This document shows positions 10,160 to 12,945 of a stretch of 64,000 bases of DNA, piece after piece (position 1 is the first letter of the stretch; each line of letters opens with the position of its first letter). Below the pieces are notes generated by a model, which was not told the DNA's origin, did not search any database, and saw only the letters and a program-made list of their open reading frames with translations. Source of the stretch: Utricularia gibba (taxonomy: Eukaryota; Streptophyta; Magnoliopsida; Lamiales; Lentibulariaceae); contig NEEC01000011.1 of NCBI GenBank assembly GCA_002189035.1, positions 2,728,001 through 2,792,000 of the forward strand, written 5' to 3'. The translations under genes were made by a program, and so were the position numbers.

Positions 10160-10422
10160 AGTACTATGGATGTTAAATAAGGCTCGAGGCTCGATCGAGT
10201 TCGAGCTGAGCCAATATCGAGCTCCAGCTGTGCATTACAAGGCTCGAGGCTCGAGGCTCGAGGAGGCACATTTTTGGGCTCGAATCGAGCCCAAATTCGA
10301 GCCAAGTTTTCTTGGGCTCAGTGAGCTTGAGCCTAAAAATATACAATCGAGCTAGAGCTCGAGCTCGAAACTTACCGGAAAGCTCGGCTCGGCTCGAGCT
10401 CGTTTGCAGCCCTAGTTACTAT
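10160..10422. mobile_element. hAT-like MITE (degenerate)
   Basis: A 247-base body (10168-10414) is packed with CTCGAG/GAGCTCG repeats. Its right end read backwards (AGGGCTGCAAACGAGCTCGAG) resembles its left end (GGATGTTAAATAAGGCTCGAG), as expected for imperfect terminal inverted repeats of hAT-type miniature elements. The flanks AGTACTAT (10160-10167) and GTTACTAT (10415-10422) agree at 6 of 8 positions, compatible with an old 8-bp target duplication. It has no coding capacity. Confidence 0.6.
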
Positions 10423-10479
10423 CTAGATTCTTCTGAGATTTGCAATCATATTTTAAAATTTTTTATTTATTATATGGCA

Positions 10480-10640
10480 AGCTCGTGGGCTGGATAGGGC
10501 CAGCCCGATGCTATAAATAATCGGGCTAGGGCCATGTTAATCATATTTTTATGTAATCGGGCTTTATCCCGGCCCTAGCCCGAAACTTGGCGAAGCCCTC
10601 TGAAATAGGGTCGGGCCAGCCCGGCCCGGCCCAACTTTCA
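10480..10640. repeat. GGGCTAGCCCGGCCC-type repeat, probable second hAT-related fragment
   Basis: The stretch repeatedly uses GGGCT, AGCCCG and CGGCCC words, with inverted copies at its two ends (GGGCCAGCCCGA near 10498 and CGGGCCAGCCCGG near 10612). This composition is typical of subterminal regions of hAT-related short elements. I could not define exact ends or target duplications. Confidence 0.4.
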
Positions 10641-10675
10641 TCTTTACTTGTTGAGTTGAGCTTAACTTCTTTAAC

Positions 10676-10692
10676 GGGGGGGGGGGGGGGGG
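10676..10692. repeat. G homopolymer (17 bases)
   Basis: An uninterrupted run of 17 G, followed by T and four more G, lies about 35 bases before the first ATG of the next gene. Runs of this kind are unstable and hard to sequence, so its length should be treated as uncertain. Confidence 0.9.
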
Positions 10693-10726
10693 TGGGGTTT
10701 CTTCTCATAAAGCTTTTAGCGTGAGG

Positions 10727-12100
10727 ATGGGTCAAGAGAAGATCAAGGAGATTTTTGAACTTGACATCTTACCTGAGTTTATGAAAGCAACCAGCATACC
10801 CGTGGCGGCGCTGAAGGAAGCATTCAATGAGGACAAGGACAAGAACATGTATCCGGAGGAACTAATCTATCAGGTAGCTGCATACATTATTTTTATAATG
10901 AATCGAACTGTTTCGTTTCCCTTTTTGAATGTTTGCTTTTTGATCACCAGACCGGACTTTTCGGTGCAAAGGATGCGCTGCAAAGCATGCGCTGCCGTCT
11001 TCTTTGGCCGATGACCTCACAAAAAGTTAATTTCGTTCCCATCTCTTTTCTTTTTTTTTTTGTTCGCTGTTTGTCGTTGGTTTCGACAGATACCGACCGC
11101 TTCTGAGTGTTAACAGATACAACGGCACATCTTGCGGAGCAATTTGCACGCTACGACAAAGGCCTGCGGCACTTCCATCTTCTTCATTTCATTCCCAGCT
11201 CTTTTTTTTTTTTTTTTTTTTTGCTTGCTGTTTGTCATTGGCTTCGATAGATAGCAGTCGCTTATGAGTTTTAACAGATACCACGGCACATATTGGGAAT
11301 CAACTTGCAACTGGAGGCCACGACTCGAGTCTACATCACTTGTCTCAGCAATGTGCCCTTGGTGAGTTCTAAGAGATTGCTTGCTGTTTGTCATTGGCTT
11401 CAATAGATAGCAGTCGCTTATGAGTTTTAACAGATACCAAGGCACATATTGGGACGCAACTTGCAACTGGAGGCCAGCACTTGTCTCAGGCAACTGCAGA
11501 CCACGGCTTGAGTCTGGCAACTGCAAACCACGAGTTGACTCTGCAGCACTTGTCTCAGCAATGTGCCCTTGGTGAGTTCTAAGAGATTGCTTTTTAAGTT
11601 ATTGAGTGAGTAGGTAGTACACATTTTGCATATATTCATTCATTCGTCTCGGATTTCAAAAGTCATGCAATGAAACAGGTTCTGTTATAGGAACTCTTGC
11701 TTCTTGGTCTGTTAGAATAGCACGTATTCTCCCCGGTTTCCTAATGAATCCCAGCTGCAAGAAAGGATATGAGATGCTGAAGGTCACGCTTGAAGAGATC
11801 GTCTGCGGCGTCATGACAGTCGGTGGGAAAATTCTTGGGGAATTTTCGGTTTTGGGAATTTCTGGATCATGGCGGCCGGCGGATTACTCGGTTAGTAGCT
11901 AGTGATTAATTAACTTGACTTTCTGTTAGATAATGTGATCGGATGCTGAACTTCTTCTGCCAGGAAACCTACTGGGCAAGTTTATCTCCAAGAGAATCGT
12001 CAAGCGCTGTTTGAAGATGCTTGGGATCAAGAAGGGAGGCTACAAACGTCACGGTTATGAGTACGTGGTTGGCGAATCCTATGACAGAGTATGCGGCTGA
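10727..12100 (+). CDS. Unrecognised gene with tandemly repeated exon
   Basis: I do not recognise this protein. Exon 1 (10727-10873) gives 49 residues starting MGQEKIKEIFELD and ends at a clean CAG|GTAGCT donor. A short exon after 10950 (TGLF, possibly spliced at TTCG|GTGCAA) may follow. Then come two similar exons, each flanked by TTTTAACAG and CCCTTG|GTGAGT and coding for D-T-x-A-H-I-G-x-Q-L-A-T-G-G. Both are in phase 1-1, so either may be included or skipped. The next exon (11679-11890) encodes SVIGTLASWSVRIARILPGF and a glycine-rich stretch. The last (11964-12100) is basic (KRIVKRCLKMLGIKKGG) and ends YDRVCG plus stop. Exon 11679-11890 is one base too short to join the last exon in frame, so a base may be missing in GGGG near 11837. 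The model is tentative. Confidence 0.4.
11065..11590 (+). repeat. Three tandem copies of an intron-plus-exon unit
   Basis: The unit CTGTTTGTC(A/G)TTGG...TTAACAGATAC...GGCACAT occurs three times. Copy A (about 11065-11150) is the most diverged and has no splice donor. Copies B (from 11223) and C (from 11379) are nearly identical outside the exon and share the donor CCCTTGGTGAGTTCTAAGAG. Copy C has an extra internal duplication of a 27-base unit beginning GCAACTGCA. A poly-T tract of about 20 bases separates A and B. Confidence 0.85.
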
Positions 12101-12945
12101 ATGGTATAAATTCAGGCACCAGTTGTTGCTGAACCTGTCTGTGGGTTTACTTATTTCTCAGTGACATCAGACACTCTTATTGTCACCTGTATCGTTGCTG
12201 TGTTTTGACGTTCCGAAAACCATTCTGTTTCAGTGCTTCGGCTTTGCTTAATTGTGTACTGATTCATTCTCAGTACCCTGCATTGAGAATCATCTCCCTC
12301 TTGATCCTACATTGCTTCGTTTTTTCTTGCTGGTTTTCATGGACATAGAACTCTTTGAAAATCATACATTCATTTAGACAGGGAGGGAGTAGCGAAGGGA
12401 AGATGCTTGACAAGGTGAGTTATTTATACTGCCTGACAGAGTTTTGAGTGATTGTTAGAGCTTCCAAAAAAAGCAGGATAACTTGCTTGATATGTGTTGG
12501 AGACTTTTGAAGCCTTTAAGAAGATTAAAATATGTTTTTGAAATGATATTTTCATTAGTTACAAATACAAGCATTGGTATTTATAAAAGGGTGAATATCT
12601 TCGTACAATACTGTTTTTTTTTTTCTTCATCTCTTTGTTATCTTGTTGTATAAATAATCGCTTCTCTTTTTTTCATTAAATTTTTCCAGTGGAAATAGAT
12701 GTGGGGTGCAAAATTTTAGGGGAAGAAAAGAGAAACAGATAGGTGAAAAATGAAAAAAATGTATTGTATTGGTATAAAAATGGAAATTTTAGGGATGATG
12801 GTATTTCGAGGAAGTGTTCGACGTTATGCCCCAAAGGAATGTGGTCACTTGTGTGGTAGGAGAAAAAATTGGCAATTTCATGTCTACTGTTTTACAAGGC
12901 ACTATGGCCATTTGAATGCTTTCACCTCATTTACTCGTAAGCCTG
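12101..12945. other. Gene-free spacer
   Basis: Holds the 3' region of the preceding gene and, from about 12430, AT-rich sequence before the stop codon of PPD4 on the minus strand. The short open frame at 12750-12983 shows no motif. I see nothing else to annotate. Confidence 0.6.

Follow-up and report, generated by a model that had tools for sequence, protein, structure and literature searches.

A duplicated exon and a broken reading frame in a putative single-copy gene of Utricularia gibba

The locus described here lies at positions 10,727 to 12,100 of a 64,000-nucleotide window of the Utricularia gibba genome (contig NEEC01000011.1, positions 2,728,001 to 2,792,000, forward strand), to which all coordinates below refer unless otherwise indicated. 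Coding potential was scored with a 3-periodic Markov model whose training set was 117 long ORFs (24,462 codons) from the 64-kb window and from twenty 10-kb pieces (200 kb) of the same genome. This model replaced a codon-usage table derived from the window only, which was dropped as too weak after a marginal result (score 35.1, shuffle mean 22.1; at least 5 of 150 shuffles scored higher). Splice sites were scored with approximate general plant consensus frequencies, not trained on U. gibba, and a gene finder based on free dynamic programming was run on positions 10600-12300. The features are the following.

10727..10873, + strand: exon 1, MGQEKIKEIF...EELIYQ, 49 codons, ending in phase 0 (LLR 17.2 bits, donor 6.8)
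10951..11025, + strand: candidate exon 2, 75 nt, phase 0-0 as sequenced (acceptor 7.16, strong; donor 4.16)
10951..10963, + strand: possible 13-nt microexon, ...YQTGLF/D (acceptor 7.16; donor 1.02, weak)
10965..10992, + strand: 14-nt tandem duplication, TGCAAAGGATGCGC / TGCAAAGCATGCGC (Tandem Repeats Finder, period 14)
11027..11182, + strand: copy A, comprising a poly-T intron end, an acceptor at 11117 and the 5' part of an exon, donor absent
11278..11361, + strand: copy B exon, 84 nt, phase 1-1 (acceptor 6.55, donor 5.39; LLR 8.2 bits in the claimed frame)
11434..11571, + strand: copy C exon, 138 nt, phase 1-1 (acceptor 6.55, donor 5.39; LLR 22.0 bits)
11691..11890, + strand: exon 4, GTLASWSVRIARILPGFL... 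(LLR about 22 bits, single open frame; donor 5.53)
11964..12100, + strand: candidate last exon (exon 5), NLLGKFISKRIVKRCLKMLGIKKGGYKRHGYEYVVGESYDRVCG-stop (acceptor 7.07; LLR 8.4 bits, weak)

Among open non-coding stretches, the LLR of exon 1 is attained by 1.3%, and that of copy C in the claimed frame and that of exon 4 by 0.4% each; the value of copy B is weak taken alone. Exon 1 has stops in all five other frames. Exon 4 can be entered through two acceptors in the same phase, scoring 6.11 and 4.15, the alternative site lying 12 nt upstream at 11679. The gene finder, which was independent of the sequence-only reading that had proposed a gene here, selected 10727-10873, 11278-11361, 11434-11571 and 11691-11890, that is exon 1, B, C and exon 4. 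Its score of 79.9 compares with shuffle means of 31.5-37.7 and was attained by 0 of 400 shuffles in each of three schemes (0 of 1,200), and by 1 of 300 in an earlier run. The signal persisted when exon copies were removed: with one exon copy it was still higher than in all shuffles, and with none it was higher than in all but one of 300. Plus frame 2 (SLMSFNRY...) was considered as a coding frame and rejected for its lower coding score. The terminal joins proposed by the gene finder are not believable, exon 2 being extended into a poly-T tract and the 3' end being patched. The middle of the gene model is thus good, and its two ends are uncertain. The region is likely to be a protein-coding gene.

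We found that the tandem duplication of one small exon at this locus is genuine. The three intron-plus-exon units lie where they had been described, with spacings of 161 and 156, and form a repeat family of 105 nt starting at 11060, 11221 and 11377 (identity 73%, 100% and 94% for A, B and C). Copies B and C are 94% identical over these 105 nt; for A against B, identity is 87% in the 38 nt that precede the acceptor region and 80% in the 90 nt that follow, and the match is poor beyond. The top self-match at offsets 100-400 reaches 86/90, against a maximum of 46/90 in 100 shuffles. B and C are adjacent homologous exons, each with its own acceptor and donor, as in the earlier description, with equal splice-site scores and with the same symmetric phase, separated by a 72-nt intron. 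Copy A retains the acceptor at 11117 and, as previously noticed, has lost its donor, no GT occurring up to the next poly-T tract; this is what would be expected if the first duplication stopped inside the exon, and its boundary was probably there. Read in phase 1, B and C each encode (x)T-x-A-H-I-G-x-Q-L-A-T-G-G, so that the shared peptide of the sequence-only reading holds from the T onward, its leading D requiring an upstream exon ending in G. The internal 27-base duplication reported for C proved to be larger: C carries three 27-nt units at 11463-11543 where B has one, a difference of two units (54 nt). Short tandem duplications crowd the interval 10960-11545, where independent events of 14 nt, of about 156 nt (twice) and of 27-nt units fall within 600 nt, and a possible imperfect 16-nt tandem duplication lies within exon 4 at 11830-11865. 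This local density is unusual.

The search for relatives covered protein families, structures, RNA families, viral contigs and the genome itself. In agreement with the earlier statement that the family is unrecognised, the plus-strand protein had no match in Pfam or NCBIfam at E values up to 10 and no meaningful match in PDB (best E 0.17, unrelated molecules); no relative was found among viral contigs and no RNA family in the 64-kb window. No close paralogue was found in the genome (100.09 Mb, 516 contigs). Two weak matches to exons 4-5 were observed on the same contig, minus strand, at contig positions 2638646-2638867 and 2640919-2641122 (E 0.004 and 0.12), separated by 2.3 kb and lying about 98 kb away from the gene. 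They were obtained with a query in which the last part of exon 4 was read in another frame; the best E of the reversed-sequence control was 0.33, and exon 4 as sequenced, queried alone, matched one of the two with E 0.31. These matches may be diverged paralogues. Taken together, the locus appears to be a single-copy gene of about 200 codons without a recognisable family, for which a lineage-specific or diverged gene is the best reading.

The sequence-only reading would have been refuted had the segments proved part of a common transposon. Two families of dispersed repeats, of about 200 nt each, lie side by side just upstream (10188-10420 and 10444-10655, CTCGAG-rich and GGGCC-rich), with at least 48 matching stretches in the genome, and are followed by a run of about 18 G near 10680. 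Their presence could suggest that the tandem units belong to a common transposable element. However, the dispersed repeats stop about 80 nt before the ATG and none of their matches passes about 10655, and the sole genomic match of 11000-11600 is itself, in a search that skips very common words and is therefore strong and not absolute. A transposon origin of the duplicated segment was rejected on account of this single genomic copy, and we regard a transposable element as scarcely credible.

The exon 1 donor is in phase 0 and phase 1 is needed by B and C, so that a direct join of exon 1 to either copy leaves the claimed frame. The claim that these exons can be skipped without breaking the frame holds in part: the lengths of B and C are both multiples of three, and all four combinations of inclusion keep the frame of exon 4 provided that the series is entered in phase 1. 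The strong upstream path runs through candidate exon 2 and delivers phase 0; all isoforms using exon 2 with B and/or C run into stop codons, either within C or where exon 4 begins. No open frame leads from the start codon to the duplicated exons through well-scoring splice sites, and the proposal that the locus could make several isoforms was not supported by this analysis. The coding signal of exon 2 itself switches frame: TGLFGAKDA is favoured in frame 1 (3.4 bits), followed by AKHALPSSLADDLTK in frame 0, with 7.0 bits where the read-on frame has -1.9. The switch coincides with the 14-nt duplication. With one 14-nt copy fewer, exon 2 would measure 61 nt and pass from phase 0 to phase 1, the phase required by B and C. 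It is because of this duplication inside exon 2 that B, C and exon 4 are out of frame on the strong route, and the simplest reading is that the 14-nt duplication broke the frame.

At the 3' end, the best exon 4 donor (after 11890) is in phase 0, whereas phase 1 is the one in which the last exon reads well; the two agree only when the MAAGGLLG frame closes exon 4 or the weak donor after 11822 is used. All three frames have similar scores over the final part of exon 4, so that the coding model does not place the position of the shift. An assembly indel near the end of exon 4 is possible.

Comparison of the copies indicates how they have changed since they separated. In the claimed frame, B and C differ by 3 synonymous and 11 non-synonymous codon changes, where changes falling at random would give 2.9 synonymous ones. 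No frame of B/C has a significant synonymous excess, and the A/B and B/C changes fit neutrality in every frame, although they are few. We thus see no purifying selection on B and C since their split in the claimed frame, the small number of changes leaving room for weak selection. Indeed, the two copies differ more in the exon (12 of 84 positions) than in the flanking intron (1 of 76; P 0.003), which is the reverse of constraint. Part of this excess may reflect exchange among the 27-nt units and, for this reason, positive selection is not claimed.

Several explanations of these observations were weighed. The locus could be a gene that is intact and expressed and that uses B and C either together or as alternatives, the frame being opened by the microexon at 10951-10963 or by another weak site; it would then make up to four isoforms, differing by 28 and 46 residues. 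This microexon is the only clean route into B and C in phase 1 that avoids reading through the poly-T tract and, when it is used, the frame that starts in exon 1 stays fully open into exon 4 for each of the four combinations of B and C. Exactly this chain was picked in the first gene-finder run, with the simple model, and the splice sites of B and C are good. Against this, the donor of the microexon is poor, scoring 1.0 where the competing donor after 11025 scores 4.2; the microexon is absent from the chain of the second gene-finder run, and the 3' end does not close cleanly. We consider an intact gene of this kind rather unlikely. A more specific version, in which a lineage-specific gene would splice a variable number of duplicated cassette exons, in frame and with a 9-residue repeat that is expanding, entered through the 13-nt microexon beside the frame-shifting duplication, seems distinctly improbable.

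An absence of any gene, with chance open frames in non-coding DNA that underwent ordinary local tandem duplication, would account for the missing homologue, for the marginal score of the simple codon model and for the absence of constraint in every frame of B and C, and dispersed repeats do come close to the ATG. It is difficult to reconcile with three separate exons that each show one clearly coding-like frame and with the ranking of the region by the better-trained model above all 1,200 shuffles, and we hold it to be unlikely. The coding strand could otherwise be the minus strand, where a 162-codon ORF (11110-11598) spans both B and C, the 156-nt repeat spacing being a multiple of three, and would encode a tandem-repeat protein with a poly-lysine stretch. 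In this antisense frame copy C scores 18.6 bits, and the B unit differs from unit C2 by 4 synonymous and 0 non-synonymous changes. The synonymous excess over all comparisons nevertheless does not reach significance (P 0.10-0.17, uncorrected for six frames), the 8.8 bits of the whole ORF are low for its length, and gene models reach 35.3 at best on the minus strand, compared with 79.9 on the plus strand, which leaves minus-strand coding very improbable.

The explanation that we favour, and to which we give about an even chance, is that the locus is a decaying gene (a pseudogene, or at best a weakly functional gene that relies on cryptic splicing) and not an isoform generator. Decay is the most likely reading because of the frame break at exon 2 and the out-of-phase junction between exons 4 and 5. 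Briefly, one internal exon would have undergone two successive local tandem duplications. The first, covering an intron end and part of the exon, would have produced the donorless copy A; the second, covering the complete exon and its splice sites, would have produced B and C. Afterwards C would have gained two 27-nt units, unless B lost them. Being phase-symmetric, B and C could serve as cassette exons, but the additional 14-nt duplication inside exon 2 puts the main splice path out of frame.

These features can be compared with three known systems. Microexons of up to 15 nt are used in plants, and their adjoining introns tend to carry strong splicing signals (PMC8831610). The 13-nt exon needed here for the frame resembles them in size; unlike them, this candidate has a weak donor. 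As a short multi-exon coding locus in single copy and without a known domain, the gene also resembles the lineage-specific (orphan) genes of plants, a likeness drawn from comparison with Pfam, NCBIfam, PDB, its own genome and viral contigs. A third parallel is tandem exon duplication, an established process and a source of alternative or mutually exclusive exons (Kondrashov and Koonin 2001, cited in PMC2674458). As in such systems, B and C are adjacent, keep both splice sites and share a symmetric phase, and either can be skipped; in contrast, the upstream frame of the main path is broken here, the third copy is truncated, the copies evolve without visible constraint and the case is read from the DNA only. 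The locus would therefore be a further instance of this known process and, if expressed, a compact example from a plant of a recent tandem exon duplication at an early stage: within 1.4 kb, good copies stand beside a dead one and a break in the frame. It illustrates that phase symmetry of duplicated exons, even when perfect, is not equivalent to usable isoforms, and that the frame must be traced from the start codon.
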